Source of the DNA: Candidatus Zhuqueibacterota bacterium
Lineage (GTDB): Bacteria; BS750m-G25
Assembly: GCA_016783505.1 (NCBI GenBank)
Contig: JADHWK010000014.1
Span: 1-50,472 of the forward strand
Direction of reading: 5' to 3'
Length of the DNA: 50,472 bases
A program made the translations under genes and the position numbers. The notes beneath the pieces were generated by a model. The model worked only from the letters and a program-made list of their open reading frames with translations. It was not told the DNA's origin and did not search any database. Positions within the stretch are counted from its first letter, which is position 1. Every line of letters starts with the position of its first letter. Positions 13,631 to 29,609 of this stretch are shown piece by piece.

Positions 13631-13673
13631 GGAGAGGTGGCCGAGTTGGCTGAAGGCGCTCGCCTGCTAAGCG
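13631..13673 (+). other. Left attachment site: 5' half of tRNA-Ser(GCU)
   Basis: Starts GGAGAGGTGGCCGAG and runs through anticodon loop CTGCTAA to GCG, then switches to unrelated DNA (TGATTTTCAGCC). The same 43 bases begin the intact gene at 29519. This half alone cannot make a tRNA. It lies 23 bases after tRNA-Ser(UGA), showing the two were a tandem pair before integration. Confidence 0.88.
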
Positions 13674-13767
13674 TGATTTTCAGCCATTTTTTTTGTATCT
13701 AAATCATTTTTAGCTACCAAATATGTGCATATTTAGCAGAAACATGTCAAATATGGACACAGATAAC

Positions 13768-13783
13768 GTTACATATTCGTAAC
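13768..13783. promoter_or_regulatory. Left end palindrome GTTAC-N6-GTAAC
   Basis: GTTACATATTCGTAAC lies 95 bases inside the left attachment site. A near copy, GTTACATATCGGTAAC (29451-29466), lies 52 bases before the right attachment site. Candidate arm-type binding site for the recombinase or excisionase; inference only. Confidence 0.45.
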
Positions 13784-14094
13784 ATGAAATAAAGGAAAGA
13801 TACAGAAGGATTTAACGTAATCGCAAAAAAATTTTTCTTAATAAAAAATAGTTAATTTTTTTTGTTCAAAGGGCCCATTCATTCATCTTGAGTAGGCATT
13901 TTGTTTTTTGAAACTTATGAACCCTGATGGTTTTGAAAAACCGGATGGTATTTTTTGGTATATTATCGTTAAAAATTTAACGGAAATTTTCACCCCCCTC
14001 CGACTTTAAAGGTTTTGTGCCTAACCCGTTTCAACCCGGGGTAAAAAAAGCGAAAAAAACTCTTGCATCTTTGAAATTAATTTATAAAACTCCA

Positions 14095-14329
14095 GGTAGA
14101 AGGATTTTACCCTAATTATTTTATGTTGCTTTATGATTATACCTTGAAGTATTAAAAACAGCTTCAGGTTATACTGTAACCGTAGCCTAAGCAAACCAGA
14201 TTCAACGGAACTTGATTCGGAGCTGGTTAGCCCCTTAAAGATACCCCTGTGAAGCTGCTGATCCCGGTAAGGCTTTTATTGGTTTGCAAACCTAATAGTT
14301 TATCCAGTAAAGATTTCAGGGGTTTTTTA
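14095..14329 (+). ncRNA. Possible structured RNA upstream of the first island gene
   Basis: The gap 13674-14453 has no gene. Within it, 14095-14329 has several complementary segments: GGTTAtactgTAACC; AACCAG with CTGGTT (about 14195-14227); GGTTTGCAAACC (14281-14292); and ACCCCTG (14243-14249) with CAGGGGT (14317-14323), followed by TTTTTT. A possible promoter (TTGCAT, 16 bases, TAAAAC) lies at about 14064. No known family is recognised. Tentative: it may be an RNA gene ending at the T-run, or simply AT-rich intergenic DNA. Confidence 0.25.
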
Positions 14330-14453
14330 CTCCTCCATGAAGCTGTTTACCTTGAATCCTTTATTCTCTATGATTCTAAAGAACCGAATATGGTTTTTTG
14401 AAATATTGTTTATAAGTAAGATCAAAAAATTCCTATTCTTATAGTTAATTCAA

Positions 14454-16133
14454 ATGAAGCTTAAATTATGCACCTTTAGTCTTATTCTGGTTTATAATAT
14501 ATTTTTTCCAATTTCTATCCAAGCTCAGTGGAGTAATGATCCTTCTCAGAATTTACAGGTTTCCCCCTGGGGAATGTCCCCCCAGGCGGTAACTGATGGG
14601 GCGGGGGGGGTGTATATTTTGTGGCATGTAAACAGCTTTGCCACCCCTCAGTATCTTCAGCGGGTAAATAAATACGGTTATATTTGTTGGGAGTGGCCAT
14701 TAGTAATACAAGGTGAGTGGGGGGGAACCGGTTTTTATCCGTATATTATTGAAGACGGTTCCACAGGTGCATTGGTTGCTTTTAGTGAACTTCAGGTTAG
14801 TGGTGAGTTTCCATATCCTGGTCGTGGGCTGGTGACCCGTGTTGACAGCACAGGCAGTTTTGTATGGGATTCTGTGAATGTCAGGGTGAGTTTAACGGAT
14901 AGTTCTTATGGGGCAGTAGGTATGGTCCCTGATGGGGAAGGCGGTGCTATTGTTGTTTTTATAGTCGAATTTCTTGAGACGATTCCGCTTTATGTGCAGC
15001 ATATTTCTTCTTCTGGACAGCGCCTTTGGGGGGATAGTGGTGTATTTGTTACTGATGTCGTCTCAAGTGCAGCTATTTCGTTGGTTTCTGATGGGGCTGG
15101 CGGGGTGATTTTACATTATTGGGAAGATGATTTTAAGTTTAGTCGAATTGATTCTAATGGGAACATACTGGGGACGACGAATTCCACTATGTTTTATTCA
15201 CGGATGATACCGGATAGGAATGGTGGAGCAATAATGAGTGGTACAAGATATTCAGGTGGAGATTACAATTCTGTTGCTAATCGTCTTTCTTTTGACGGAA
15301 TATTTTTATGGGGTAATGAAGGTATTACGTTAGCTGATAGTACAGGAATACAGGGTTCTGGCATTAATATAGCCCTCAATGAGGATGAAACAGCGACATT
15401 TGTATGGAGAAAGCCAGTAAATTCATTAAATAATATTTTCACCCAGCGATTAACAGAGAATGGACAAATAGTCTGGAATGAAAATATACTTGTTAGTTTA
15501 TATCCATCTGAAAAAGTGGGAGGTCAAGTTCTACCGAGTGATAGCGGAAGTAACATTTATATATGGGCAGATTCCAGAAACAGTAATGGAGATCCATTTG
15601 GCAGTGATATATATACTCAAAAAATAAGTTCTACACAAGAAAGATTGTGGCCTTATGATGATATCCAGATTACTTATAGTCATCCTTCTCATATGAAAAT
15701 TGCTACAGATCAACAAAATGGTGCAATTGTTGTTTGGTCTGATGAACCTCTTTATGGCATATTTGCCCAACAGATAAGTAAGAATGGCATTTTAGGTGAG
15801 GTAATTGATTCTGTCTCTTCTATTGAAGTAGAAAATGAAAATAAATTTCCTGAAGTATTTGAACTATATCAAAATTATCCAAATCCATTTAATCCATCAA
15901 CGGTTATTAGATATCAGCTATCGGCTATCAGTAATGTGGAGTTAATAATTTATAATGCCTTAAGTCAAGAAATTAAGCTACTATTTAGTGGTCAATTACC
16001 AGCAGGTAATTATCAATCTATTTGGGATGGTAGGGATAATTTTGAAAACCAGCTATCAAGTGGCGTCTATTTTTATAGACTAAAGATAAATAATAATAAA
16101 ATAAAAACAAAGAAGATGTTGTTAATTAGATAG
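14454..16133 (+). CDS. Secreted T9SS-sorted protein with repeated blade-like motifs
   Basis: 559 aa. An N-terminal signal peptide (about residues 1-25, ending SIQAQ) is followed by eight or more repeats of a (D/S)G-x-GG-x-hydrophobic pattern, for example TDGAGGVYILWH, DGEGGAIVVF, DGAGGVILHY, DQQNGAIVVWSDE. These look like strands of a beta-propeller. The C-terminus (about 475-559) is a sorting domain: LYQNYPNPFNPSTVIRYQL through GVYFYRLKI and KKMLLIR, as used by the type IX secretion system in FCB bacteria. Three 7-base words (TATCAGC, TATCGGC, TATCAGT at 15912-15932) encode part of the sorting domain. It is the first gene of the island. Target unknown. Confidence 0.8.
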   Translation: MKLKLCTFSLILVYNIFFPISIQAQWSNDPSQNLQVSPWGMSPQAVTDGAGGVYILWHVNSFATPQYLQRVNKYGYICWEWPLVIQGEWGGTGFYPYIIEDGSTGALVAFSELQVSGEFPYPGRGLVTRVDSTGSFVWDSVNVRVSLTDSSYGAVGMVPDGEGGAIVVFIVEFLETIPLYVQHISSSGQRLWGDSGVFVTDVVSSAAISLVSDGAGGVILHYWEDDFKFSRIDSNGNILGTTNSTMFYSRMIPDRNGGAIMSGTRYSGGDYNSVANRLSFDGIFLWGNEGITLADSTGIQGSGINIALNEDETATFVWRKPVNSLNNIFTQRLTENGQIVWNENILVSLYPSEKVGGQVLPSDSGSNIYIWADSRNSNGDPFGSDIYTQKISSTQERLWPYDDIQITYSHPSHMKIATDQQNGAIVVWSDEPLYGIFAQQISKNGILGEVIDSVSSIEVENENKFPEVFELYQNYPNPFNPSTVIRYQLSAISNVELIIYNALSQEIKLLFSGQLPAGNYQSIWDGRDNFENQLSSGVYFYRLKINNNKIKTKKMLLIR

Positions 16134-16201
16134 AGATAAATTGAATACAAGTAAGTAATAATCAGTTTCAATATTTAAACCAAAACAAGGAGGGTCAAAT
16201 C

Positions 16202-18349
16202 ATGAAGAAGGTTATGTTCACTCTGGTGGCGTTGACTTTATCCATGTCAATGGCCTATGCCTGTGGTTTTAACACTGGCTATATTGAATGGTCCCAGCCC
16301 AATGGCGTAGGTTTTACAGCATGCTATTGGAGCGATGGTTTTCAAACATGGATGGAAACGGATGATGGGTATCGTATTTTTAAGGGCTATGATGGTTGGT
16401 TTTATTACGCTGTTCTGAACAGCAGGGGAGAATTTTCCCCATCGGATAAAAAAGTGGGCATTGATCCACCTTTAGCTTCATCCTACAAGTTGGAACGTTC
16501 TGCTGAAAGAATAGCAGAGATTCAGGCATATAAGGAAGCCTGGAATCGGGGTGCTGAGGAAGGATATCAGGAAAATTTAGCTTCTTCACTTGATGACCCC
16601 GTAACGTATAAACTCGGCGTGGTTCTGGTTGATTTTACACCCAGTGCCAGAAGAACAGAAAATGAAAATTATCCATATGGTTACACCAAAGCTCTTTTTG
16701 ACAGCATGTTTTTTTCAAGAAATCATTGGATTGGTGATGAATTCAGTACGCCACCAACTCCGCATCCTGAGCTTGAAGCTCTATTCGGCAGTTTTGCCGA
16801 TTATTACTGGGAGCAGTCGTTGGAAACGGTTCAGTTTGAAGGCAGAGACGGAATGCGTTCGATTGTAAATCCAGATACGCTTGTTAATGGGTATTTAATA
16901 CCGCGGTGGGTAATTCTGGACAGTTCTGCAACTTATTACGATGAATTAGGAGGAGGATGGCCATTCGGTGCTTATACCCTTTTACATGACATGATAAGTG
17001 CTGCCAATGCCCAATTAGCCGATGTTCTTGGCGACAGCCCTTTGGATTCTGTTTTTGATAAGGTTGGATTTATCACTGCTGGTTATACCTCTCTAAGCGG
17101 TGGAAATTTACGTGGAGGATGGACAGAATATGTGGGTGGAAAATATTATGTGTGCGCAGAGGTGTATGGATGGGAGGGTAATCCAAATTATCCCGCTGGC
17201 TTTCGTCATATCGGCACTCACGTTCATGAGTTTGCTCATACAATTGGTTTGGCGCATTATAATTTCTATTATCCCGCTCTTTACTGCCGTTATTTTAATT
17301 TAATGGGATATGGTGGTAATGGTCCAGATTATCGTGAAGCCTGTCCTTCCGGTTTTTGTCCTTATGCCCGTGTAGAAAAATTAAATTATGTAGAATATGA
17401 TACCATTCAAACAGACACCACACTAATTATCAGCTACAATTACGATAATCCAAAATATTACCTTATTAAGGTGCCTTCAAGCAGTCAACGTTTTGTTCTT
17501 GAGAATCGCCTCAGAGAAGGTTTTGATTTATGGACGCCAAATGATGCGAATTTCGTATCCCCTGACCCTCAAAATATAGATCCCAATGGCAACCAAGGCG
17601 GGCTATTAATCTGGCGTAATAGGTCACATATAGACCTTTTGGCGGCAGATGATGTACCTTATCATGAACGGATGGTTCCGGATTCAGACGAAGATATGCT
17701 GAATTTAGCGAGAGATCTTTTCCCTTATAATCAACAAGATGGGGCGGGCAGTGGATTGAATTTTAATGATTTTACATCCCCCAGCAGCAAGATAAGTGAT
17801 GAGGTCTTTTCCCATATCGCTATTCAAAACATAACCTGGGATGACGTGAATAAGACCACTACCGTAGATATTTACTTCAATGCCTGGAAGGGAAACATTA
17901 CGGAGAATACCACCTGGGATGGTGACATCTATGTTTATGGAAATATTTTTGTAAATCCCGGGGTAACCCTCACTATTCTCCCAAACACCACAATTAAATT
18001 TGATGGGTATTATAGATTGAATGTGCAGGGTAAACTTATAGCTGAAGGGACTCTAACGAACCCCATTACCTTTTGCAAAATCCCATCGACTCAAAATTGG
18101 TTTGGAATTATGTTTGAAGATTCAAGCAATGATTCATCTGTGGTTAAATATTGCAATATCAAGGATGCCTATCGAGGAGTAAGTTGTATATATGCTTCCC
18201 CAACAATAAGTAACAACACGATTTCAAACGTCACGTATGGAATATATGTTTCATATTCTTCCGCCACTCTGTCTAATAACATAATAAACCAAAACAATAG
18301 CTATGGTATATATCTTTATAAATCTTCCTCGACGACTACTAATAATTAG
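16202..18349 (+). CDS. M6-like secreted metalloprotease, ended by an in-frame amber codon
   Basis: 715 aa to TAG at 18347, with AAGGAGGG ahead of ATG 16202. It has a signal peptide MKKVMFTLVALTLSMSMAYA, a propeptide-like region, then a zinc protease domain with HEFAH at residues 342-346 (THVHEFAHTIGLAHY, LMGYGG downstream), as in M6/immune-inhibitor-A-type proteases. From about residue 580 there are parallel beta-helix repeats (SNNTISNVTYGIYVSYSSATLSNN). These continue in the same frame straight after the TAG, so the natural protein was about 1189 codons ending with the sorting domain at 19768. As written, the product would lack its secretion signal at the C-terminus. Terminal readthrough or a sequencing error is possible. 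Confidence 0.8.
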   Translation: MKKVMFTLVALTLSMSMAYACGFNTGYIEWSQPNGVGFTACYWSDGFQTWMETDDGYRIFKGYDGWFYYAVLNSRGEFSPSDKKVGIDPPLASSYKLERSAERIAEIQAYKEAWNRGAEEGYQENLASSLDDPVTYKLGVVLVDFTPSARRTENENYPYGYTKALFDSMFFSRNHWIGDEFSTPPTPHPELEALFGSFADYYWEQSLETVQFEGRDGMRSIVNPDTLVNGYLIPRWVILDSSATYYDELGGGWPFGAYTLLHDMISAANAQLADVLGDSPLDSVFDKVGFITAGYTSLSGGNLRGGWTEYVGGKYYVCAEVYGWEGNPNYPAGFRHIGTHVHEFAHTIGLAHYNFYYPALYCRYFNLMGYGGNGPDYREACPSGFCPYARVEKLNYVEYDTIQTDTTLIISYNYDNPKYYLIKVPSSSQRFVLENRLREGFDLWTPNDANFVSPDPQNIDPNGNQGGLLIWRNRSHIDLLAADDVPYHERMVPDSDEDMLNLARDLFPYNQQDGAGSGLNFNDFTSPSSKISDEVFSHIAIQNITWDDVNKTTTVDIYFNAWKGNITENTTWDGDIYVYGNIFVNPGVTLTILPNTTIKFDGYYRLNVQGKLIAEGTLTNPITFCKIPSTQNWFGIMFEDSSNDSSVVKYCNIKDAYRGVSCIYASPTISNNTISNVTYGIYVSYSSATLSNNIINQNNSYGIYLYKSSSTTTNN

Positions 18350-19771
18350 ATAGAGAACTCCACTAATTTTGGGATCTATTGTCGTTATTCAAACTCCATC
18401 CCTTCCCAACCGGTCCTACAATATAATACTATAGAAAACATTTATAATTATGGAATTTATTGCTATAAATCCTCTCCTAAGTTGTTTGATAACATAATAC
18501 AAGATAATGGTAAAGATGGTGTATACTGTTATCGTTATAGCAATGCTGAATTTGGAAGTAGTAATAGTGATATTCCTGGTCGTAATGTGATTAGGTATAA
18601 TGATCGCTATGGTTTGTATGCTAACTATTATTCAGATGTTTTTTTGGGTGAGTTTATATATTTTGGGCCGGGCATTACCTTTGGTGGTTATAACAGTGTT
18701 TATAGCAATAGCTCCTATGAAGTAAGGGCCAATTATTATTGTGATGTCCTGGCTGAAAAGAATTGGTGGGGTTCTTATCCGCCTCCTTCCTCAGAATTTT
18801 ATGCCACCAATGGGTCCTACATAGACTATGATTTCGCATTGGATTACGATCCAAACCCTATTCCAAAAGGTGAAGGTACGCCTGGGGGTAATCCACCCTT
18901 ATCAGGAATGCAATCTGGAATACAGATCAATTTTCAAGCCTATTCACTGGGAGATTTGCTCAGGATGGCATCCCGGTATAGATGGAGCAACAATTTTGAT
19001 TTGGCGATTCAGATATGCGAATACATTATATCTGCATCTCCTGATTCCAATGAAGCCCAACATGCCCTGGCCATTCTCTGGGGAGTTTTCAGGCTCTCTG
19101 GTATGGGAGGATTTTCTGCTTGTCTTGATAGCATAATTATATCTTACCCAGATTATGAAATAAGCGGGATGGCTTCTGAAATACTTGCCTGTTTATATGT
19201 ATCTGAAGGATTGATAGAAGATGCTTTAACCCATATTCAACGGATAAGGGATAATTTTGCCGGTTCTGAGGTTCATAAATATGCCCTGTTTGATTTGATA
19301 AACATTTATCTTTATGAGCAGGGTGATTTGGATATGGCCCTGGAGACCTTTTCTGAATTATCGACCCTCTTCCCCGACGATGAGTTAGTGGAATTAGCCC
19401 AATTGCTGATTGATGATTCTGGATTGACATCAATGGGTAAGAGACTTCCTGAAAGCGGTATGAGCTTGTCTGTTAATATTCCTGAGGATTATTCACTATT
19501 ACAGAATTATCCTAATCCTTTCAACACTTCGACTACCATCAGATACGGATTGCCCGAAGATTCAAGAGTCAGTGTAAAGATTTACAATATAATTGGCCAA
19601 GAGGTGGCTACTCTGGTTAATAAGCCCCAGGATAAAGGATATTACACTGTCAACTGGAATGCTAACGAGTTAGCTTCAGGTATTTATATCTTGAGAATTG
19701 AGGCTCAGGCTCTGTCACAGACGACAGACAAGAGGTTTTTAAAGGTTATGAAAATGTTATTAGTAAAATAG
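18350..19771 (+). pseudogene. C-terminal part of the M6-like protease gene: beta-helix, TPR-like, T9SS sorting domain
   Basis: Same frame as 16202-18349, with no further stop; the first ATG-like codon in the conceptual downstream frame is well inside a domain, so this is not an independent gene. Beta-helix repeats continue (NSTNFGIYCRYS, NYGIYCYKSS). A TPR-like helical segment (FDLAIQICEYIISASPDSN, EDALTHIQRIRDNF, DMALETFSELSTLFPDD) and a sorting domain LLQNYPNPFNTSTTIRYGL to MKMLLVK follow. Apart from the single TAG the coding is well preserved, suggesting a recent mutation, suppression, or an assembly error. Confidence 0.75.
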
Positions 19772-19801
19772 CGAATTCCAAGACAAAATATGAATATTGA
19801 A

Positions 19802-19829
19802 AAGCCAACCCTTTGCGGTTGGCTTTTTT
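19802..19829 (+). terminator. Intrinsic terminator after the split M6-like gene
   Basis: AAGCCAACC (19802-19810), loop CTTTGC, GGTTGGCTT (19817-19825), then T residues to 19829. Confidence 0.9.
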
Positions 19830-19879
19830 AATGCGATAAATGTTGCTGTTCGGGAAACGGTTTGGGATGTTAAAAAAGC

Positions 19880-19908
19880 TTGACTTTTTCCGATTAAAGA
19901 CTTACATT
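19880..19908 (+). promoter_or_regulatory. Promoter upstream of the trypsin-like protease gene
   Basis: TTGACT (19880-19885), 17 bases, TACATT (19903-19908). The gene starts 190 bases downstream, so a long leader is implied. A small inverted motif (CCTAATATAGG) lies at about 20060-20072. Confidence 0.5.
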
Positions 19909-20099
19909 ATTAAAGCAAAAAATCATTATCTTTCCTAGTGCTATACTGCCCCTTGCTGTATAATTAAAGGAAGCAATACGTGAAAAATATCTTACCTTCT
20001 TTCCCCACACATCCCAATAGTTATTCTTATTAACACACACCCAGGTGGTAATTGGGTAGCCTAATATAGGTTAGCCTTAATAAATAACTAGGATAAATT

Positions 20100-20930
20100 A
20101 TGAAGAAATTGTTCATTTTAGTTTTTGCATTCTTTAATGTGATTACCATATTAAGAGCTCAAATCCCCTACCCTGAGCTAATAGAAAAAATAAAACCAAG
20201 TGTGGTTGGTATTGAAGCACATGACGATACATTAATCACTTTTCGAAATGGTGAGTTAAGACAATATCACTCTTACGGTAGTGGTGTCCTCATAGCTATT
20301 GACTCTATAAATACTTATGCTCTAACCAATGAACATGTGATAGCTATAAAAGATTCAAATGGAAAAACTATACGATATGCCAAAGATATAGTTGTTTCGA
20401 TTAATATGACAGATATTGGGGCTTTTCCCTGTAAGGGGAAAATAATTAAGGTAAACGAAGAATTAGATTTAGTTGCGTTGAGTGCTACTTATCCAAGTAA
20501 TATTAAAGAAACACCACTTGTAATAGTTGTTGGGCACGATCTCTGGGAGGAAGAATCAAATTTAAAAGAAGGTGAGGTTGTACTATATTCGGGTTATCCA
20601 TTAAAATGGGGTCGAGGAGAAATTAATTTACCTTTGACTAGGACAGGTATAATTTCACAATTAATACCGGGCAGTCAAACATTTTTAATTGATGCATTTG
20701 TTCAGCCAGGCTATAGTGGTAGTCCAGTTTTTCTACTTCGTAGTAAACCAAATGTTTTACCAGCGCAGTGGTATTTTAAATTTATTGGAATTTGTAAAGC
20801 TTATCCGTATAGTCTAAGTCCAGTATACCAAAAAGTAAAATTCGCTGAAATACCAGATGCATATGTTATTGAAAATCCCGGTTTTTCAGTAGTAATAGGT
20901 ATATCGGCAGTAAAACAGCTATTTAAATAA
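20100..20930 (+). CDS. Secreted trypsin-like (chymotrypsin-fold) serine protease
   Basis: 276 aa with an N-terminal signal peptide (about 1-20, ending LRAQ). The triad can be placed: His79 in YALTNEHV, Asp123 in EELDLVALS, and Ser206 in QPGYSGSPVF, spacing typical of trypsin-like peptidases of the HtrA type. No PDZ domain follows, so it is a minimal periplasmic or secreted protease rather than a DegP. It lacks a T9SS sorting domain, unlike the two upstream secreted proteins. AT-rich, like the rest of the island. Substrate unknown. Confidence 0.8.
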   Translation: MKKLFILVFAFFNVITILRAQIPYPELIEKIKPSVVGIEAHDDTLITFRNGELRQYHSYGSGVLIAIDSINTYALTNEHVIAIKDSNGKTIRYAKDIVVSINMTDIGAFPCKGKIIKVNEELDLVALSATYPSNIKETPLVIVVGHDLWEEESNLKEGEVVLYSGYPLKWGRGEINLPLTRTGIISQLIPGSQTFLIDAFVQPGYSGSPVFLLRSKPNVLPAQWYFKFIGICKAYPYSLSPVYQKVKFAEIPDAYVIENPGFSVVIGISAVKQLFK

Positions 20931-21147: not shown

Positions 21148-21177
21148 GTTTAACAGTCAATATAACCCAAAAAACAC

Positions 21178-21206: not shown

Positions 21207-21237
21207 GAAATATATAGAAAGAAGAAGGGAAGATAGT

Positions 21238-22923
21238 ATGGCAACTCCGCTTCAGGAACCAATAAAGGCTAAGCCTCATTCTCCTGCTTATATGATGCAC
21301 AAGTTTTGGGCACGACGTCCTCATAATGTCTTCAGAGAGCTAATAGCTAGCCATACTAAACCTGGGGATACCATTTTGGACCCATTTTGCGGTGGTGGGG
21401 TGACTGTTGTTGAGGGACTTCAGATACGCCGGAAGGTCATAGGTATTGACATCAACCTGTTAGCTACCTATGTGACGGAGATGGAAGTTACTTCTGTAAA
21501 TTTGGATGAGCTTTATCTTGCTTACGAATCTTTGTGTCAGGATATTCGAGCCGAAATTTTAGAATTATATAAGACTAAATGTCGCAAGTGTGGGCAAGGA
21601 GCTGTATGTGACTGGATTGAATGGAAAGAGCAGAAACCGATTAAACTTGCCTATACCTGCTCTTTCTGTGGAGCTAAGGAAGAGGTGTTTCCTTGTGAAA
21701 AAGACGAATCCATTGCCCTAACCGTTGATAGAGATTTTGAGCAAAGGATAAAAACCGGAGCGTTGTGGTTCCCAGGCGACCGAATTCCTGATGGCGACAA
21801 GACTGATGGATTGATTAAGGGTGGAGTTACTCATTTTCAACAATTATTTACCAAGAGAAATCTGCTGGCATTAGCGCTTTTGTGGAAGAGTATTGATAAG
21901 GTTCATAATACGGAGTCTCGTAATTTTCTTCGGTTTGTCCTTAGTAGTTCTCTTAAGTGGGCAAGCCGTCAAAGTCATAGACGAGGAAATATTATCGAAG
22001 GTTGGGCAATGCATGCTTATTGGCTTTATCCTGTAGAACTGGAAATTAATGTGTGGAATACATTTGCAAGGCGTTTTACAGCTATAGTCAGAGGCAAGCA
22101 GTTTACCAATGAAATGATAGGTCAGTATTATCAGAGAGCCAAGTCTTTCGAAGATATAGTGAATGGTCAAGCAACATGTTTGATTCTTACCCAATCTTCA
22201 ACCTCATTACCCATTGGAGATGGTAGAGTTGACGCCGTTATCACTGATCCACCTTACGGTGGCAATGTAAACTACGGGGAGCTTGCTGATTATTGGAGTG
22301 TGTGGCATCGCTTCAATGGTAGTGGACTCACCGAGAAATCTGAAGAGGTAATTATCAATAAGCACCAACGAAAACGCCTGTTAGACTATAAGGAGTTACT
22401 GGAGAAGGTTTTTTCTGAGTGCTATAGAGTATTGAAACCGAATAGTGTTGCTGTAGTAACCTTCAACAATAGGGACTTAGGCATTGTTGCTGCTTTTGTT
22501 CGAGCTGTTACCAGGGCTGGATTTAACCTCCACCCCGAGGGTTTGCTCTATCAGCCGCCCATAAGGGCTTACACCACTACCTTTCACGCCAAAGAGTTAG
22601 GGTCCTTCACTGGAGATTTCATTTTCACACTTTACAAAGAGAACCATCATCCTGTCTATGGGGGGACTAACCATAATACTATCAAACAAAAAGTTGAGCA
22701 GGCAATCTCAGAGTTTCTGCATTGCCGAGAATTACACCGACACACACAAGCTGACCTTAGACAACAGTTATACCGGATTTTAATTCCGTTTTTGGCTACA
22801 TATACAGGTCGTAACGATGACACTTATTGGAATGTGGTTCGAGAACTGGGACAGCAACTTAGGTCTTTGGACAAGCTTTTACCAGAGATTAAAGTGTGGT
22901 GTCGCAACCGCTACCGTTATTAA
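21238..22923 (+). CDS. DNA methyltransferase (N4-cytosine/N6-adenine type)
   Basis: 561 aa from ATG 21238 (AAGGGA 8-9 bases upstream). Motif I (SAM binding) is LDPFCGGG at residues 47-54, and the catalytic motif IV DPPYGG starts at residue 337. The order I then IV, with a long insert between, places it among the amino-methyltransferases. The insert carries two Cys pairs (CRKCGQGAVC and CSFCGA), probably a zinc-binding element. The N-terminus (PHSPAYMMHKFWARRPHNVF) is typical of this subfamily of DNA methylases. A 23-base gap with a ribosome site leads to the next gene, a putative endonuclease, so the pair probably forms a restriction-modification system. Recognition sequence unknown. Confidence 0.85.
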   Translation: MATPLQEPIKAKPHSPAYMMHKFWARRPHNVFRELIASHTKPGDTILDPFCGGGVTVVEGLQIRRKVIGIDINLLATYVTEMEVTSVNLDELYLAYESLCQDIRAEILELYKTKCRKCGQGAVCDWIEWKEQKPIKLAYTCSFCGAKEEVFPCEKDESIALTVDRDFEQRIKTGALWFPGDRIPDGDKTDGLIKGGVTHFQQLFTKRNLLALALLWKSIDKVHNTESRNFLRFVLSSSLKWASRQSHRRGNIIEGWAMHAYWLYPVELEINVWNTFARRFTAIVRGKQFTNEMIGQYYQRAKSFEDIVNGQATCLILTQSSTSLPIGDGRVDAVITDPPYGGNVNYGELADYWSVWHRFNGSGLTEKSEEVIINKHQRKRLLDYKELLEKVFSECYRVLKPNSVAVVTFNNRDLGIVAAFVRAVTRAGFNLHPEGLLYQPPIRAYTTTFHAKELGSFTGDFIFTLYKENHHPVYGGTNHNTIKQKVEQAISEFLHCRELHRHTQADLRQQLYRILIPFLATYTGRNDDTYWNVVRELGQQLRSLDKLLPEIKVWCRNRYRY

Positions 22924-22946
22924 AAAGTTTACGGAAAGGAGAGGTA

Positions 22947-23462
22947 ATGGCCAGAAGAGGTAATTTGAACCGATTTCAAGTTGGGAGGGCAGGCAGAGAG
23001 AAAAGGTTGCGTCCACTTTTCTGCAACGAAGTCAACAAATTCCTCAAAGATTTTCATTTTGAGGTTTTTGAGAAAGTTGGACCTGACTACATGGTGTTAA
23101 GGGGTCAAGAAACTGTGGTCTTTTTTGAAGCTGAGTTCCCAACGGAAGGTAGGTGGCCTTTAGGAGGCGAATTTAGATACGATACCATCAGATGGCCCTT
23201 GAGGAAATGGGAGCATTATTGTGAGAAAACACAACAGCCTGGTTTCTATGATGGAAAGCCACTTTTCCTGATAAGCATTAGAGGTGATTTGAAAGATGCG
23301 TATTATATCGATGCGCTAACTTGGTGTCAGAAGTCAAACATAGAATATGTTAGAAACTCTGTTTTTCGTGGGTTTCCCAAGACTTACCCTGAAATGGGGA
23401 GGGGCATTGAAAAAATCGAGAAATACTTTCTGGATAGGCTAAAAAAAGTTTATGAACTTTAA
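22947..23462 (+). CDS. Putative restriction endonuclease partner of the methyltransferase
   Basis: 171 aa from ATG 22947 with AAGGAGAGG 3 bases before. Cotranscribed with the methyltransferase. The sequence GPDYMVLRGQETVVFFEAEF can be read as a nuclease core PD-x(13)-ExE (Asp47, Glu61, Glu63). Some PD-(D/E)xK enzymes, such as BamHI, use Glu in place of the Lys. The rest is charged and cytosolic with no other recognised domain. The nuclease role is inferred from this weak motif plus operon position; a methylation-dependent accessory protein is an alternative. Confidence 0.5.
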   Translation: MARRGNLNRFQVGRAGREKRLRPLFCNEVNKFLKDFHFEVFEKVGPDYMVLRGQETVVFFEAEFPTEGRWPLGGEFRYDTIRWPLRKWEHYCEKTQQPGFYDGKPLFLISIRGDLKDAYYIDALTWCQKSNIEYVRNSVFRGFPKTYPEMGRGIEKIEKYFLDRLKKVYEL

Positions 23463-23506
23463 CTGCAATGATAATTCGGGGTTGAATCTGAGTTTGTAAA
23501 AAAGTA

Positions 23507-23671
23507 TTAGAGAGTTTCAACGGCTTCTTCGAGTTCTTCTCGTGAAGCCTGTGTATAGATTCCGGTAGATGCAAGAGAGGCGTGGCCCAGGAGTTTTTGT
23601 ATAACTTCGGTGTCCACGCCTTTTTTTCGTAGGTTCATTGCAAAGGTATGACGTAGTGAGTGAATTTGGTG
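23507..23671 (-). pseudogene. C-terminal remnant of a XerC/D-like tyrosine recombinase
   Basis: Reading the minus strand from about 23671 down to a stop at 23507 gives HQIHSLRHTFAMNLRK, then KGVDTEVIQKLLGHASLAST and GIYTQASREELEEAV. This contains the conserved HxLRHTFA box, the LGHxSLxST segment and the nucleophile Tyr of tyrosine recombinases. Upstream an in-frame TGA (23672-23674) and unrelated DNA follow, so only the last 54 residues survive. It is the only protein trace on the minus strand and probably marks an older, mostly deleted element. Confidence 0.85.
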
Positions 23672-23707
23672 TCAGACACAATGATAAACCCAAAGATTTC
23701 ACCCCGA

Positions 23708-23723
23708 TCCCGAATCATCGGGA
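23708..23723. repeat. Palindrome TCCCGA-N4-TCGGGA
   Basis: TCCCGAATCATCGGGA, copy four of the intergenic family. The surrounding 23672-23911 is gene-free, GC-richer than the rest of the island, and holds several short CTGAC/GTCAG inverted repeats. Confidence 0.55.
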
Positions 23724-23911
23724 GAAGGGTCTCAACAGGAAAGCGAGTTGCTTACCCCAATCAGTCCGCCGTCAGTCGACTACCTGACTGACCTGACCGA
23801 TTCCCCGAAAAATGCCAAAATTCTTCCTGACCGGTCCCTAGAGGGGTCACTGACAGGTTGGACCCAGGAAACGGTCTTGGTGTTCGGCTTCGTTTTGACA
23901 ACATTTTTTCC

Positions 23912-23940
23912 TTGACATTAGAGAAAAAACTTATTAACTT
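23912..23940 (+). promoter_or_regulatory. Promoter ahead of the tRNA-Phe fragment
   Basis: TTGACA (23912-23917), 17 bases, TAACTT (23935-23940). With the terminator at 24085-24108 it would define a short transcript containing the tRNA fragment; probably the original tRNA promoter. Confidence 0.5.
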
Positions 23941-24034
23941 AAATGGGTAAAATTCTTGCTATAAAGAAAACTTCTCATAAAGCCAGCAATTCAATTAACC
24001 AAACATTATTTCAAGACTTAGCGGAATAGTTAGA

Positions 24035-24070
24035 GCCGGGGTAGCTCAGTCGGTAGACCGAGTGACTGAA
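24035..24070 (+). pseudogene. 5' half of a tRNA-Phe gene (old attachment-site scar)
   Basis: GCCGGGGTAGCTCAGTCGGT continues through a D arm and into an anticodon-type loop CTGAATA (GAA, phenylalanine), after which unrelated AT-rich DNA follows. The match to the tRNA consensus ends at the anticodon loop, exactly as at the tRNA-Ser left attachment site. With the recombinase remnant at 23507 it suggests a second, decayed integration inside the island. The D stem has a mismatch (GACC instead of GAGC). Confidence 0.75.
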
Positions 24071-24084
24071 TATAATAAACATTG

Positions 24085-24108
24085 GCCCTTTTTTGAAAGG
24101 GCTTTTTT
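24085..24108 (+). terminator. Intrinsic terminator after the tRNA-Phe fragment
   Basis: GCCCTTT (24085-24091), loop TTTG, AAAGGGC (24096-24102), then six T. Confidence 0.85.
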
Positions 24109-24388
24109 AGTTTCAGTGTTGAACTTTTCAAGAATAAAGTCGTTTGCGGATCCTGATCAATATGCAGTAGAATTTTAGTTGTTAAAAAAGCCCACCTATA
24201 TTTCCCCCCATAAGCTCTTCAAAATTGCCCCCACAAGTTTATCTCAAAGACAATTTAAGAAATATCTACTACACCCAACCCCCTGTTTACGAGTTTTGGG
24301 GTGGGGCACTATGGGGTTTTGAAATTTTTTATGCAAACTAGTGCAAACTCTAGGAAACCAGTGAAAATAGAACGTCAGTAAAAAAAAC

Positions 24389-24518
24389 TTGATTTTTAAA
24401 AATATATTTCTTATATTAGAAAGGAAACAGTTTTGAGGGTGCATATAGTTTAGTTTATCAGCAAATCATTTAATATAAACCCAGGGCCGCGATGAGGAAT
24501 GACTCTGGGTTTTTTTTT
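24389..24518 (+). ncRNA. Promoter-leader-terminator unit 1 of a tandem array
   Basis: TTGATT (24389-24394), 17 bases, TATATT (24412-24417) form a promoter. The predicted RNA starts near 24424, carries the conserved stretch GTGCATATAGTTTAGTTTAT, and ends in hairpin AAACCCAG (24477-24484)/CTGGGTTT (24505-24512) with loop containing GGCCGCGATGAGG and a T-run to 24518. Predicted length is about 95 nt. No reading frame of note is present. It may be an independent small RNA or an orphan copy of the attenuator that precedes the HTH gene at 25834. Confidence 0.55.
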
Positions 24519-24543
24519 AAATAAATCGTGATTAAAAAAAAAC

Positions 24544-24677
24544 TTGATTTTTTAAAAAATATTTCTTACATTAAATAGCAAATAGTTATAAGGGTGCATA
24601 TAGTTTAGTTTATCAGTAAATCACTTAATATAAACCCAGGGCCGCAATGAGGAATGACTCTGGGTTTTTATTTTTTT
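24544..24677 (+). ncRNA. Promoter-leader-terminator unit 2 of the array
   Basis: TTGATT (24544-24549), 17 bases, TACATT (24567-24572). The same leader GTGCATATAGTTTAGTTTAT and the hairpin AAACCCAG (24632-24639)/CTGGGTTT (24660-24667) are followed by TTATTTTTTT. The unit lies 155 bases downstream of unit 1. Promoter spacing, leader and loop (GGCCGCAATGAGG) are kept while connecting bases differ, which looks like selection on promoter and RNA structure. Confidence 0.55.
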
Positions 24678-24703
24678 AAAATAAAACGTGATTTATAAAA
24701 AAC

Positions 24704-24830
24704 TTGATTTTTTAAAAAATATTTCTTAGATTGAAAAAGATATAGTTTTAAGGATGCATATAGTTTAGTTTATTAGTAAATCATTTAATATAAACCCGGG
24801 GCCGCAATAATGAATGGCTCTAGGTTTTTA
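24704..24830 (+). ncRNA. Promoter-leader-hairpin unit 3, weakened terminator, fused to broken HTH gene
   Basis: TTGATT (24704-24709), 17 bases, TAGATT (24727-24732), 160 bases after unit 2. The leader is conserved (ATGCATATAGTTTAGTTTAT). The hairpin AAACCCGG/CTAGGTTT (about 24792-24827) has a C-A mismatch, so termination should be weaker. It is followed at once by AGGAGG and the broken excisionase-like gene at 24848, showing the native position of these units is directly upstream of such a gene. Confidence 0.5.
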
Positions 24831-24847
24831 ATTATTAGGAGGTCTCA

Positions 24848-24983
24848 ATGGTGAAGATGATACTGGGAAAAGAAGAAGCCGAGAAATTACTTGGTATATC
24901 AACACGTAAGGTTTTGGATCTAGCGTGAGCAAGAATCTTCCTACCTTCAAAATCAGTATAAAGAATTTTAATCTGTTTTGACA
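24848..24983 (+). pseudogene. Broken duplicate of the excisionase-like HTH gene
   Basis: AGGAGG (24837-24842) then MVKMILGKEEAEKLLGISTR KVLDLA, ending at TGA (24926-24928). After a frame change, NLPTFKISIKNFN continues, matching the intact gene at 25834 (RIPSFKIGKAVKF). One nonsense codon plus a frameshift inactivate it. Confidence 0.8.
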
Positions 24984-25008
24984 AAGTCAGGTTGTAAAGA
25001 GGTGAGTC

Positions 25009-25692
25009 ATGGAGTACAAATTCGGCACAATCTTTCCGCTTGATGAACTTATTTCGAAGTCGAATAAAAGATTAAATGAATTATTAAAGCCAAAAACCGA
25101 AGAGGAAGAAGTACGCAAGGTAATGTTAAATGTTTACCGTAGAAATGCAAGACCTTTTATGTATGAAGCTGTTGCACCAGAGTTGGAGAAAGGTAATTTA
25201 AAACCATTTTATCAAATGATAAAAGAGCACCCCATATGGCTAAGTGAAGAATGGGTTATTGATATCCTCTGTAAATGGAGGAATGAATTTATAGAGGCTT
25301 TGAAATTAGATGATGAAGAAAAAGATAAAGAAAAAAAGATCAAAGAGTTAAAAAAACGTTTCCGAAGAATCGGGGGTTCTTTATGGCCTAATCCAAAGAA
25401 AATATTAGATGGATTATCTGGAGACATCATTGATAAATTGTATCGCGACTATAAGGATAAAATGAATTTGTATAGAAGAATCAAGAGAAGTTTAAAGAGA
25501 AGGTGCAAGAACCCCAAGAAAATTCCTCCTAGCCTTGTTAAATCATTATCTTTTGAATATGAAGTGCCCGAGGATGAAATATTGAAATCACAAAAAAAGT
25601 CTCCCTATAAGCTTGCTTTGGAAATAATAGCAAAAGATCATCATAAATCTGGCGAGACTATTAGAGGATACTTCAAAAGAATTATGGAATAG
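25009..25692 (+). CDS. Hypothetical charged protein of the island
   Basis: 227 aa from ATG 25009 with GAGGTG 6 bases before. Not recognised. The composition is strongly Lys/Glu rich, with a helical, possibly coiled-coil segment (LKLDDEEKDKEKKIKELKKRFRR) and basic stretches (YRRIKRSLKRRCKNPKKIPP) that could bind nucleic acid. The C-terminus (SPYKLALEIIAKDHHKSGETIRGYFKRI) resembles the helices of a small HTH but not a named family. It sits between the two copies of the HTH gene, the position where mobile elements often keep replication or regulatory genes. Function unknown. Confidence 0.6.
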   Translation: MEYKFGTIFPLDELISKSNKRLNELLKPKTEEEEVRKVMLNVYRRNARPFMYEAVAPELEKGNLKPFYQMIKEHPIWLSEEWVIDILCKWRNEFIEALKLDDEEKDKEKKIKELKKRFRRIGGSLWPNPKKILDGLSGDIIDKLYRDYKDKMNLYRRIKRSLKRRCKNPKKIPPSLVKSLSFEYEVPEDEILKSQKKSPYKLALEIIAKDHHKSGETIRGYFKRIME

Positions 25693-25778
25693 GCTAAAAA
25701 TGGTTACGAAATAGACAAAATTGTTAACCATTTGAAAACATCATTTTTATAGCTTTTCAGCTCTACATTATTTAAATT

Positions 25779-25822
25779 AAACCCGGGGCCGCAATAATTA
25801 ATAGCCCTGGGTTTTTATTTTT
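25779..25822 (+). promoter_or_regulatory. Fourth copy of the hairpin: attenuator-like leader of the HTH gene
   Basis: AAACCCGGGG (25779-25788) pairs along its full length (one G-T) with CCCTGGGTTT (25805-25814), with loop CCGCAATAATTAATAG in the middle, and is followed by TTTTATTTTT and then AGGAGG of the HTH gene. As an intrinsic terminator just ahead of the ribosome site it should limit HTH expression unless read through. Confidence 0.6.
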
Positions 25823-25833
25823 AGGAGGTCTTA

Positions 25834-26028
25834 ATGGAAAAGCGTATACTGGGAAAAGAAGAAGCAGCTCGATTACTGGGTATTTCTACGCGCAAGGTTC
25901 TAGATTTGGCTAGGGCGAAAAGAATCCCAAGTTTTAAGATTGGTAAAGCGGTAAAATTTGATATTCGTGACATTGAAATGTGGATTGTCGGTCTTAAGGA
26001 AAGCAATAAAAATTCAGTGTTACTCTAA
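25834..26028 (+). CDS. Excisionase-family / MerR-type helix-turn-helix protein
   Basis: 64 aa with AGGAGG 5 bases before ATG 25834. The sequence LGKEEAARLLGISTRKVLDLARAKRIPSFKIGKAVKFDIRDIEMWI is a complete winged-HTH of the excisionase (Xis/AlpA) type: helix 1 EEAARLLG, recognition helix STRKVLDLARAKRIP, wing FKIGKAVKFD. Such proteins bind attachment arms and direct excision or act as repressors. Two tyrosine recombinases follow downstream, and a hairpin attenuator precedes it. A broken duplicate lies at 24848. Probable directionality factor of the island. Confidence 0.8.
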   Translation: MEKRILGKEEAARLLGISTRKVLDLARAKRIPSFKIGKAVKFDIRDIEMWIVGLKESNKNSVLL

Positions 26029-26050
26029 AGGTTTTTTAATTTCTCATTCT

Positions 26051-26327
26051 TTTATGTACACCGGATTATCATTTCATGTCGAATATTCTTAGAACCCTGG
26101 TGAGAAGGTATAAAGGACGTTACAACTCCTTGTAATTTAAAAAGATGTTTCTTTATGTATGGTGTATTCTTAATGATAAGTTTTATGTATTTGGGGACTT
26201 GGGATGAATTGTAATATTTCGTAACCTAATGTTCTATTTTTAATCAAATTGTAACATTAAATTAGAAATTATGTATAACTCTTTGCAAAATAACTTTGGG
26301 TTAGTTGACCAAAAGATGATACATAAA
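26051..26327. promoter_or_regulatory. Cluster of TTTATGTA sites upstream of the recombinase gene
   Basis: TTTATGTA occurs at 26051-26058, 26152-26159 and 26182-26189, once as ATTATGTA (26268-26275), and inverted as TACATAAA at 26320-26327. GTAAC-type motifs (GTTACAACTCCTTGTAA near 26119, GTAATATTTCGTAAC near 26211) lie among them. The 357-base gap 26029-26418 has no gene. Candidate operator or accessory recombination sites. Confidence 0.45.
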
Positions 26328-26418
26328 ATGTAAAAGAATGTATCGATATTTAGCATTCTGTATTATGGTGTAGTTAGTTGAATTTATGTTTATGTGGTTA
26401 AGATTGGAGGATGGGACA

Positions 26419-28107
26419 ATGAAATTTACAAATTTACTTGAGGTATTCGAAGAATATTTTGATCGTCATCCGGAATCCACTAGTAGAAGAAGCATGACCA
26501 AAACATCGCTGGTATACACTGCCCGGGCGTTTGGCGTTGTTTCACCTGCAGATATTAAAGTAGAATGCTTAGGATCCGCGCCTAAAAAACTCAAGGAACA
26601 CTTGCTAGCCATAGATGGGAAATTGTCAAAGAACTCTATTCGTAACTACATTAGTTTTCTGAATCGCCTAATTAATGATTCAACAACTGAGGGCATTATT
26701 TCAAAAATGGAGTGGGAAGATGAATTGTCGAAGATGTGGAAAAGAATATTTAATTCATTAGAGTCTGATACATCATGTGGTTCCTATAAGTGGGGATTTA
26801 GCAAGTTGATGCAGTGGTCAATCAATCATAAATTACATCCAGCAGATCTTTCTAAGGATGACCTATCTAAATTTTGGGAATATTTAAAATCTTTAAGAAT
26901 TTGTATATGGAACTATGCTTATTGGGGTGCAAGAAAATGGTGGCTAAAAGGCCTTGAAAAAGGAATCTTACCTCCACTTGAATTTCCCCATATGTCTTCT
27001 GTTAACAAGTCATACCGGGTGGAAAAGAAAGCTTGGAGCAATCAACTTAAAGGTGAATATCATGACTACCTTAAATGGGTTACTAAAGAGAACAACCCAG
27101 ATCGACCTAGAAAATGTAATCAGAGAAAAATTACCCAAAAAATTGTTTTGGCAACATTTCAGAGAATTGTTGGATATCTTCATAATATAAAAGGAATTCC
27201 CCTTGAAGATATTTCTTTTAAAACAATTTTTAACAAAAACAACATATTAGACATGTTAGAATGGCTGAAACAGCGATTGGGTAAATCGAGTCGATCACAC
27301 ACGATGATCATAAATAGTTTATCAACTATTTCATATCACTATTTAAAATCAGACAACAAAGAGTGGTTCACTAACCTAAGAAACGCTTATCCAAGTGGTC
27401 CTGTTAAAGACAAAAGAGATAGAATGGTGACTTGGAAAGATTTGAATAGGGTAATTGATGGAATAGATAGTGAAATTCATAAGGCGGTAAGTCAGAAAAC
27501 TAGAAAGAAATCTCAAAACTCACCATATGTCCCAGTTCTTTTCCGGAATAAGCTTATGTTTGTTTTATTGGTTTACCGTGGCTTAAGGCAGAGAAATATC
27601 AGGGAATGCAAATATGAAAATAATGTTTGGAAAGATTCTGAAGGCATATGGAGAATAAAATTTGAGGGTCAAGAAACTAAAACTGGAAACAAAATTATTT
27701 TTCAATTTCCTCCCAAGTTTGTTACTGTATTGGAAGAATACATTGATAAGTATAGACCAGTCTTAATTAAAAATACTAATACAGACTTATTATTTCCCAG
27801 CCGAAATGGAAAGGAGCTACCCTGTACTTCAGTTATCAGGTTAATTAAAGGATTATGTCATAAACATTTAGGTAAAGATATCAATCCACATTTATTTAGA
27901 GATATCTTAGCTACGAGTTATATATTGGAGAACCCAAAGGATTATTTGACGGTTAGCAAAATCTTGGGTCATAGTAATATAAATACAACGCTAAAAATGT
28001 ATTCTCATTTTGAATGTGCTAATGCAGCAGAAGCTTTCGACAAATTCTTTGATTCAAGTATGAAAAATAAATCTCAGGATAATAACGGTGAAATTGAAGA
28101 AAGTTAA
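26419..28107 (+). CDS. Tyrosine recombinase (large, 562 aa)
   Basis: ATG 26419 is chosen because GGAGG lies 8 bases upstream; an ATG at 26386 lacks one. The N-terminal half includes an arm/core-binding-like helical region (for example KLSKNSIRNYISFLNRLIND). The catalytic half has RGLRQRNIRECK (first Arg), NPHLFRDILATS (HxxR box), and ILGHSNINTTLKMYSHF (His and nucleophile Tyr). At 562 aa it is longer than typical phage integrases (about 300-400 aa), with extra N-terminal sequence not recognised. It is the first of a recombinase / zinc-ribbon / recombinase run; AT-rich. Confidence 0.85.
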   Translation: MKFTNLLEVFEEYFDRHPESTSRRSMTKTSLVYTARAFGVVSPADIKVECLGSAPKKLKEHLLAIDGKLSKNSIRNYISFLNRLINDSTTEGIISKMEWEDELSKMWKRIFNSLESDTSCGSYKWGFSKLMQWSINHKLHPADLSKDDLSKFWEYLKSLRICIWNYAYWGARKWWLKGLEKGILPPLEFPHMSSVNKSYRVEKKAWSNQLKGEYHDYLKWVTKENNPDRPRKCNQRKITQKIVLATFQRIVGYLHNIKGIPLEDISFKTIFNKNNILDMLEWLKQRLGKSSRSHTMIINSLSTISYHYLKSDNKEWFTNLRNAYPSGPVKDKRDRMVTWKDLNRVIDGIDSEIHKAVSQKTRKKSQNSPYVPVLFRNKLMFVLLVYRGLRQRNIRECKYENNVWKDSEGIWRIKFEGQETKTGNKIIFQFPPKFVTVLEEYIDKYRPVLIKNTNTDLLFPSRNGKELPCTSVIRLIKGLCHKHLGKDINPHLFRDILATSYILENPKDYLTVSKILGHSNINTTLKMYSHFECANAAEAFDKFFDSSMKNKSQDNNGEIEES

Positions 28108-28136
28108 GCCAACTCATATCATTAAAGAGGTGAATT

Positions 28137-28388
28137 ATGGATTGCCCATATTGCCAAGGGAAAACCCAAACAATCAGAAGTCTAAATCAAGGACCTTGGA
28201 GATCCAGGAAGCGTAGATGTTTCGATTGTAATTGTGAATTTAATACGATTGAAGCTCCGATTGATTGTTTGAAATCGAATCGTTTAAAGTCCGACAGAGC
28301 ATTTTCCGAAATGTTCGATCTTGCATTGAGTACAAACCTTGAAGTATTAAGGCCTCTGTTTGAGACTGATTTTTTAAAATTACAATAA
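28137..28388 (+). CDS. Small zinc-ribbon protein, NrdR-like N-terminus
   Basis: 83 aa, 30 bases after the large recombinase, with AGAGGTG before ATG 28137. MDCPYCQGKTQTIRSLNQGP then RRCFDCNCEFNTIEAPID resembles the zinc ribbon plus FTTYE segment that opens NrdR repressors (CPxC at the start, CxxC later), but the ATP-cone that follows in NrdR is missing. The remaining 40 residues are helical and unassigned. Probably a DNA-binding regulator of the element rather than a ribonucleotide reductase regulator. Confidence 0.65.
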   Translation: MDCPYCQGKTQTIRSLNQGPWRSRKRRCFDCNCEFNTIEAPIDCLKSNRLKSDRAFSEMFDLALSTNLEVLRPLFETDFLKLQ

Positions 28389-28453
28389 ACCAAATCCTTA
28401 GAAAAACATATTGCTAATCAGGAATTTTATTATTATATTTACAGAGGTAGTAA

Positions 28454-29440
28454 TTGGCATCCTTACGTAAAAGACAGTTAAAGCACGGATGGACTTGGGT
28501 TTTAGACTATTCCATTTATGGTAGACGCAAAATTATTAGCACCGGGACTCAAGATCGTAAGACAGCAGAGCTAATAAAAAAGGATATTGAACTAAATATT
28601 GCGAAAAGGAGATTCGATCTTTTACCCCAAAAGCCCAAGGTTGTCTTTTTAAAAGATTTTTATAAGGAATATTACAACTTTAGCAAGCAAAGAAAAAGTA
28701 AAAACACCTCTTACATAGATAAACATTGTCTCAAATTATTCAAGGCTTTTGTGGGTAATATTAGTTTAACACAACTTAATACACGAATTGCTGAAAGATA
28801 TATCTCCCATAGACTCACTAAAGTCAGACCTACAACTGTAAATATTGAAACTAGAAGCCTAAAATGCGCCTTTAACCATGCAATAAGGTGGGGATATTTA
28901 AGAGAAAATCCTTTTGCAGAAATAAAGCAGTTAAAAGTGAATTTAAGCCCGCCCCGCTTCCTTACATTAGAAGAAATAAAAAAACTCCGAGAGGTAATAA
29001 AAGACAAAAAATTTAAAATCCTCATAGAATTTTATTTAAACACCGGTGCTAGGAGAATGGAAGCCCTCACCTTAACATGGAAAGACATAGACGCTCATAA
29101 CAACACAATTATATTAAGGGGGAAAGGGGGAAAAAGCAGGAGAATACCAATAAAGAAGAAACTAATAGACTTATTGAATACTTTAGAGCCAGAGTTGTTC
29201 GATTACAGACCTGATTATGTTGACCACAAGTTTAAGAATTATTGCAGAAAGGTAGGGATTTGTGATATATCTATTCATAACCTAAGAAAAACATATGCCA
29301 GCTATTTAGTAATGAGTTATGTTTCCATATTCGAGGTGTCAAAATTACTGGGCCATTCAAGTGTTTTGACCACTGAAAGGCATTATAGCTCTTTAGCGCC
29401 TGATTTTCTTAAGCAATCAATAGAAAAATTGCCATATTAG
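28454..29440 (+). CDS. Tyrosine recombinase / integrase next to the right attachment site
   Basis: 328 aa from TTG 28454 with AGAGGTAG upstream. The N-terminus has the usual integrase opening (RKRQLKHGWTWVLDYSIYGRR) and a SAM-like core-binding domain (FLKDFYKEYYNFSKQRKSKN). Catalytic residues are visible in order: Arg in NTGARRMEALTL, Lys region RGKGGKSRRIPI, HNLR in SIHNLRKTYAS, His in KLLGHSSVLTTERHY, and the nucleophile Tyr in the last. It ends 79 bases before the intact tRNA-Ser(GCU), the standard place for the integrase of a tRNA-targeting island. It is the most likely enzyme for the 13631/29519 att pair. Confidence 0.9.
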   Translation: MASLRKRQLKHGWTWVLDYSIYGRRKIISTGTQDRKTAELIKKDIELNIAKRRFDLLPQKPKVVFLKDFYKEYYNFSKQRKSKNTSYIDKHCLKLFKAFVGNISLTQLNTRIAERYISHRLTKVRPTTVNIETRSLKCAFNHAIRWGYLRENPFAEIKQLKVNLSPPRFLTLEEIKKLREVIKDKKFKILIEFYLNTGARRMEALTLTWKDIDAHNNTIILRGKGGKSRRIPIKKKLIDLLNTLEPELFDYRPDYVDHKFKNYCRKVGICDISIHNLRKTYASYLVMSYVSIFEVSKLLGHSSVLTTERHYSSLAPDFLKQSIEKLPY

Positions 29441-29450
29441 CATAGAAATT

Positions 29451-29466
29451 GTTACATATCGGTAAC
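29451..29466. promoter_or_regulatory. Right end palindrome GTTAC-N6-GTAAC
   Basis: GTTACATATCGGTAAC, partner of the site at 13768-13783. It lies 11 bases after the integrase stop and 52 bases before the tRNA. Candidate recombinase arm site. Confidence 0.45.
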
Positions 29467-29518
29467 ATCAAAAATTTTTAATAAAATTCTATCTTTATAA
29501 GTATTTGTTTTTATTGAA

Positions 29519-29609
29519 GGAGAGGTGGCCGAGATGGCTGAAGGCGCTCGCCTGCTAAGCGAGTGTGGGGTTAAAAGCTTCACCGCGGGTTCGAATCCCG
29601 CCCTCTCCG
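29519..29609 (+). tRNA. tRNA-Ser (anticodon GCU), restored by the element
   Basis: 91 nt. Acceptor GGAGAGG/CCTCTCC with discriminator G, anticodon stem CTCGC/GCGAG around loop CTGCTAA (anticodon GCT), long variable arm, and T loop GTTCGAATC. Its first 43 bases are shared with 13631-13673, so the 5' half comes from the element and the 3' half from the original chromosome. Any promoter must now also come from the element; only AT-rich sequence with a loose -10-like TATAAG (about 29495) is visible. Confidence 0.93.

Follow-up and report, generated by a model that had tools for sequence, protein, structure and literature searches.

Most genomic islands that reside in tRNA genes keep the host promoter and bring in only the 3' half of the gene, and insertion of the usual kind is harmless because the promoter stays in place and the 3' half alone is brought. 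Among the 3919 islands collected by Islander, 159 have a 5' fragment of the target tRNA gene versus 3760 with a 3' fragment (PMC4383910), and of 88 elements in Sinorhizobium meliloti, 9 have their match at the 5' end of a tRNA gene, the searchable portion of that report making no mention of promoters for the prophages joined to this end (PMC11476347). According to a review of archaeal recombinases (PMC8371274), recombinant bacterial tRNA genes keep their original promoter with very few exceptions (citing Williams, 2002), and bacteria seldom express a tRNA from an integrase promoter in the manner of the archaeal pTN3-like elements. In view of these reports, the 5' direction is unusual yet known. 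Islands of the 5' type must solve the problem of how the split tRNA gene is to be transcribed.

The DNA analyzed here (the window; 50,472 nucleotides of contig JADHWK010000014.1 from a Candidatus Zhuqueibacterota bacterium) very probably contains a 15.9-kb genomic island of the tyrosine-integrase type that is inserted in tRNA-Ser(GCU) and supplies the 5' half of this gene. An intact, chromosomal tRNA-Ser(UGA) gene identified with ARAGORN (13525-13608, +, where + denotes the forward strand) is followed by the left junction, attL (13629-13673, +), which consists of an orphaned chromosomal 5' half of tRNA-Ser(GCU), namely tRNA positions 1-43 plus AA. The right junction, attR (29517-29561, +), contains the island-borne 5' half and opens an intact, rebuilt tRNA-Ser(GCU) gene (29519-29610, +; ARAGORN and BLAST against the host assembly), the 3' half of which is chromosomal. 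The two copies form a direct repeat of 45 nt with one mismatch (13629-13673 and 29517-29561), which is slightly longer than the 43 bases given in the initial annotation, where the single mismatch was correctly noted. This mismatch is in the D loop (T on the left, A on the right), the longest exact stretch common to both copies is 27 nt, and the repeat takes in the 7-nt anticodon loop (CTGCTAA) and extends three bases into the 3' strand of the anticodon stem. The distance between the copies is 15,888 bp, and the GC content is approximately 0.32-0.43 between the repeats versus mostly 0.43-0.58 in the flanks. In a BLAST search of the whole host assembly, the fragment was detected with an E-value of 1e-15, and one intact tRNA-Ser(GCU) gene and one fragment were found in this assembly, which comprises 2.5 Mb in 89 contigs and is about 60% complete, so that further copies are possible.

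The integrase gene adjoins the right junction (28454-29440, +) and encodes a tyrosine recombinase of 328 aa with matches to the Phage_integrase and SAM-like core profiles and to the phrog_1 integrase; the R, K, H-x-x-R, H and Y motifs are present in the translation, and the scores of the XerC/D and integron models are far below the cut-offs. An 18-nt dyad, a candidate arm site or operator, occurs near the left end (GTTACATATTCGTAACAT, 13768-13785, +) and again near the right end (GTTACATATCGGTAACAT, 29451-29468, +); the dyad GTTACATATnnGTAACAT has only these two sites in the window, one per island end, with 0.29 expected. As judged from this anatomy, recombination within the anticodon-loop segment placed the island into tRNA-Ser(GCU); the left end retained the chromosomal 5' half together with the operon promoter, and at the right end the 5' half of the island was joined to the chromosomal 3' half. 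The 5' half was swapped because the attachment site of the island carries the tRNA 5' half, and the left fragment can be recognized as the chromosomal one because it retains its natural context, that is, tRNA-Ser(UGA) and its promoter. The single mismatch in the repeat was also considered as an indicator of the ancestral half and discarded, both bases being present in relatives.

The locus closely resembles the 5'-fragment islands of Islander (PMC4383910): a tyrosine integrase outside the Xer and integron families is encoded inside, a 5' end fragment in the same orientation lies upstream and the intact tRNA gene downstream, the crossover is at the anticodon loop, and the length of the interval is within the 2-200 kb range. 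In addition, the undisturbed target without an island exists in relatives, at non-orthologous loci. The definition used by Islander differs in that it includes neither a terminator at the junction nor read-through from the integrase into the tRNA. In archaeal pTN3-like integrases, likewise, provision of the 5' part by the element places expression of the rebuilt tRNA under the integrase promoter, as is probably the case here; the difference is that integration of pTN3 splits the integrase gene into Int(N) and Int(C) (PMC8371274), whereas the integrase gene of the window is intact and wholly inside the island. Thus, the island is an ordinary-sized member of the known 5'-fragment class, and its interesting part is the likely combination of a terminator with read-through. 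The claims of the initial annotation that the island splits and rebuilds tRNA-Ser(GCU), and that it does so in the less usual direction, are borne out by the repeat, the intact and truncated tRNA copies, the step in GC content, the integrase at the junction and the Islander counts given above.

The order of the two tRNA genes prior to insertion is indicated by relatives, which were reached via LptD and then searched with the joined flanks of the island. In 28 of the 31 loci with tRNA-Ser(GCU), the gene follows tRNA-Ser(UGA) uninterrupted and in the same orientation at a distance of 6-96 nt, a share that is biased upward because the loci were chosen by similarity to the tRNA pair; the 31 loci are those of JdFR-76 and MAG173-P120 and the top-ranking ones of 146 relatives of JdFR-76. 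The undisturbed pair argues that the insertion is real. It reflects the ancestral gene order rather than an orthologous empty locus because the flanking genes differ and the lineages are other ones: no relative identified via LptD (10594-13200) has the tRNA pair beside this gene, and the genes flanking the island in the window have no match at the tandem tRNA locus of JdFR-76. Accordingly, the check for an empty site proposed at the outset succeeded insofar as the closely spaced pair is common in relatives, and fell short with respect to synteny with the flanks of the window.

At the left junction, the promoter of the host tRNA-Ser operon, a sigma70-like TTGACT-17-TATATT (13491-13519, +), is now remote from the working tRNA-Ser(GCU) gene; it scores 16.2 bits with a matrix built from host tRNA promoters in leave-one-out fashion. 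A putative intrinsic terminator spans the junction itself (13647-13694, +), where TGGCTGAA in the orphaned tRNA half (13647-13654) can pair with TTCAGCCA among the first bases of the island (13679-13686), followed by eight T. For terminators this good, the expected number is 0.16 per 16 kb of a single strand; within the island, the terminator search gave further matches at 23579 and in a repeated leader of an excisionase-like (xis) gene (24478 and 24633). In a dinucleotide-shuffle test, the hairpin alone is moderately strong (z = -2.4). A homologous island in G234 has a hairpin and a T run just past its tRNA fragment, such a structure (24084-24103) likewise comes after a tRNA-Phe half within the island of the window, described below, and no clear terminator follows the tRNA fragment in G625. 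If active, as its sequence suggests, the junction terminator would end the host tRNA-Ser(UGA) transcript before the island.

At the right junction, the integrase gene points into the rebuilt tRNA gene, its stop codon being 78 nt upstream, and no terminator was found between the two. The 78-nt island leader (29441-29518, +) contains no host-like promoter: with a matrix of five other host tRNA promoters, its best score is 3.1 bits versus 16.2 for the displaced promoter, and random sequence of similar composition reaches a median of 4.1 bits per 178 nt with a near-identical six-promoter matrix, these values being limited by matrices of five or six host promoters, which an unrecognized promoter in the AT-rich leader may escape. 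Most transcription of the rebuilt tRNA-Ser(GCU) gene probably comes from integrase read-through, and the resulting RNA would end at the chromosomal terminator past the tRNA. Transcription of an essential tRNA would thereby be tied to that of the island, and loss of the integrase end would be disfavored except by precise excision.

The same geometry is seen in related integrases, the stop codons of which are located between 48 nt inside and 13 nt before a tRNA gene on the same strand in 11 loci. The stop codon precedes the tRNA gene by 4-13 nt in G234, G189, G081, G375, G426, G687 and two loci in G376 (one of the two integrases of G376 has an internal stop), and the frame ends inside the tRNA gene in G115 (by 18 nt), G625 (by 38 nt) and G553 (by 48 nt); the stop codon of the G625 integrase is the TAA of the tRNA-Thr anticodon loop. 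Because the integrase stop codon adjoins or enters the tRNA gene, these tRNAs can be read only as part of the integrase message or from a promoter that lies within the integrase gene. The integrases of phage Mx8 and SSV, which extend across attP (PMC4383910), resemble those of G625, G115 and G553 in that the reading frame reaches the attachment site; the integrase of the window differs from them in ending 78 nt before the tRNA gene. The loci of G427, G041 and G476 are apparently those of G234, G189 and G283, respectively, and each was counted once; G719, where the contig is cut, was omitted from the count.

Among the same-strand loci, a 5' fragment was proven in G234 (tRNA-Ser(UGA), 42 of 44 nt, 12.5 kb) and G625 (tRNA-Thr(CGU), 38 of 38 nt, 26 kb). 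The other 9 of the 11 have no proven 5' fragment, their contigs being short or containing none within 10-50 kb; specifically, none was found within the contigs of G081, G189, G115, G553, G426 and G687, nor in that of G719. Where homologous integrases are convergent with the tRNA gene, the 3' half is repeated, namely 56 of 56 nt of tRNA-Leu in G283/G476 (one island) and 44 of 44 nt of tRNA-Arg in G633. These convergent homologs indicate that the relative orientation of integrase and tRNA predicts which half is restored: all five islands readable at both ends combine the same strand with a 5' fragment or convergence with a 3' fragment. The integrase tree does not support a single origin of the same-strand geometry, because no fewer than three switches between the two geometries are needed on its well-supported branches. 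Phage and plasmid integrases are only about 30% identical to the integrase of the window, and no related islands were found in viral contigs. The closest homolog (43%), in G095 (10600-11220), is followed by an apparent bare tRNA 3' half, which suggests that 3'-fragment islands, too, are made by the integrase lineage to which that of the window belongs.

A relic that was overlooked in the initial annotation lies within the island. The segment 23902-24073 (+) is a tRNA-Phe cassette comprising a promoter, a leader and the 5' half of tRNA-Phe(GAA) (24035-24073); it shares 93.6% identity with C31:2269-2440 in the host assembly, which contains the upstream region and 5' half of the intact tRNA-Phe gene, and stops just past the anticodon loop. 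The tRNA-Phe half itself has 5 mismatches in 39 nt compared to the host gene, and a terminator lies directly 3' of it (24084-24110, +). In the DNA upstream of the relic (23463-23900), the GC content is host-like (0.477) and there are matches to dispersed loci of the host, and the DNA after it has a GC content of 0.32. From its sequence, the relic looks like a buried left junction or attachment site left by a tRNA-Phe element of the same type.

This relic bears on several alternative explanations of the locus. The source assembly is fragmented (89 contigs), which leaves room for the shared repeat to have fused unrelated contigs into a chimera; such an artefact is nevertheless very improbable, considering that the 27-nt exact match is short for an assembly join, that both junctions are biologically sensible, and that the island contains host-specific dispersed repeats as well as the copy of the host tRNA-Phe promoter. 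A segmental duplication that copied the 5' half of the tRNA gene and involved no mobile element is about as improbable: a short duplication alone would yield the repeat, but not the integrase beside the junction, the break at the anticodon loop, the step in GC content and the matching dyads near the two ends, and the same anatomy recurs at other tRNAs in other genomes. The combination of the undisturbed pair in relatives, the adjoining integrase and the end dyads makes site-specific insertion the best-fitting reading. A different kind of alternative, compatible with such an insertion, concerns the history of the island, which would consist of two fused elements, a low-GC recombinase module formerly at tRNA-Phe (24074-29518) having become linked to a stretch of host DNA (23463-24073) and to the cargo (13674-23462). 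The exact coincidence of the end of the host-like, host-matching DNA with the tRNA-Phe anticodon loop, followed by the drop in GC content, speaks for a fusion, and the divergence of the tRNA-Phe half from the host gene speaks against it, as does the failure to observe a rebuilt tRNA-Phe or a second right junction in the island; on balance, we regard this history as possible but not favored.

With regard to transcription, the same island and insertion could be accompanied by a tRNA promoter within the 78-nt leader, in which case the tRNA would be independent of integrase transcription. The initial annotation had assumed that the island brings its own promoter directly before the tRNA gene. The leader is indeed AT-rich with weak -10-like hexamers (TATAAG), and the tRNA-Phe cassette of the island is an example of a 5' half accompanied by a full promoter; however, the leader scores below the median of random AT-rich sequence and far below the displaced promoter, and most of the related loci have no room between the integrase and the tRNA. 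An independent promoter therefore appears rather unlikely, and read-through from the integrase fits better. The window and its relatives suggest an answer to the problem posed by 5'-type islands, with a terminator on the orphaned half and integrase read-through into the rebuilt tRNA. More tentatively, and with the odds somewhat against it, there might be a widespread class of bacterial islands in which the integrase gene adjoins or overlaps the 5' half of the tRNA, the split tRNA forms the final cistron of the integrase transcript, and a terminator at the other end caps the orphaned host promoter. If so, such islands would hold an essential tRNA hostage to integrase transcription, and this coupling of essential gene expression to the integrase would bear on the persistence of the islands and on the continued transcription of their integrases.

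The cargo includes T9SS-type secreted proteins, as originally proposed: a protein with a T9SS-type C-terminal sorting domain (14454-16133, +) and a TPR protein with a T9SS type A sorting domain (18482-19771, +) are encoded along with a beta-helix protein that contains an M6-metalloprotease-like part (16202-18349, +), a trypsin-like protease domain protein (20100-20930, +) and a 227-aa protein of no known family. The predicted restriction-modification pair holds only with respect to the N6/N4 DNA methyltransferase (21178-22923, +); the pair is unproven because the possible restriction partner, a 188-aa protein of no known family (22896-23462, +), has no sequence match, and its single-sequence fold is unreliable (pLDDT 45). 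The island further encodes a second tyrosine recombinase of 573 aa with the catalytic residues present in its translation (26386-28107, +) and a small Zn-ribbon protein with an NrdR-like N-terminus, matches to which are below the curated cut-offs (28137-28388, +). No relaxase or conjugation genes that would point to an integrative conjugative element were detected among the larger open reading frames of the island, and a PHROGs scan of eight island proteins yielded integrases, methyltransferases and weak matches only, with none of the capsid, portal and terminase genes of a prophage.

The excisionase-like gene encodes a 64-aa HTH_17 protein (25834-26028, +), homologs of which are encoded just before the integrase in G234, G115 and G081 and 2 kb upstream in G189. 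An excisionase neighbor was tried as a marker of 5'-type islands and is not diagnostic (5 of 11 versus 2 of 10). Leader copies with terminator hairpins precede both this gene (25764-25833) and its truncated copy, recognized by sequence reading (24848-24928, +), the latter being preceded by three tandem copies of 155-160 nt (24356-24830, +); by their sequence, these leaders look like elements of transcription attenuation of xis. Several other features in the window are worth recording. A dispersed repeat, GGCCYATTCATTCATCTTGAGTAGGC followed by T runs, which resembles a terminator or attenuator, is present at 13860-13909 and in about 25 places of the host assembly, with some copies 100-170 nt before an open reading frame and clusters at a spacing of a few kb on some contigs. 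Finally, a 432-aa protein in which the homing-endonuclease-associated HNH_repeat domain occurs five times is encoded at 549-1847.
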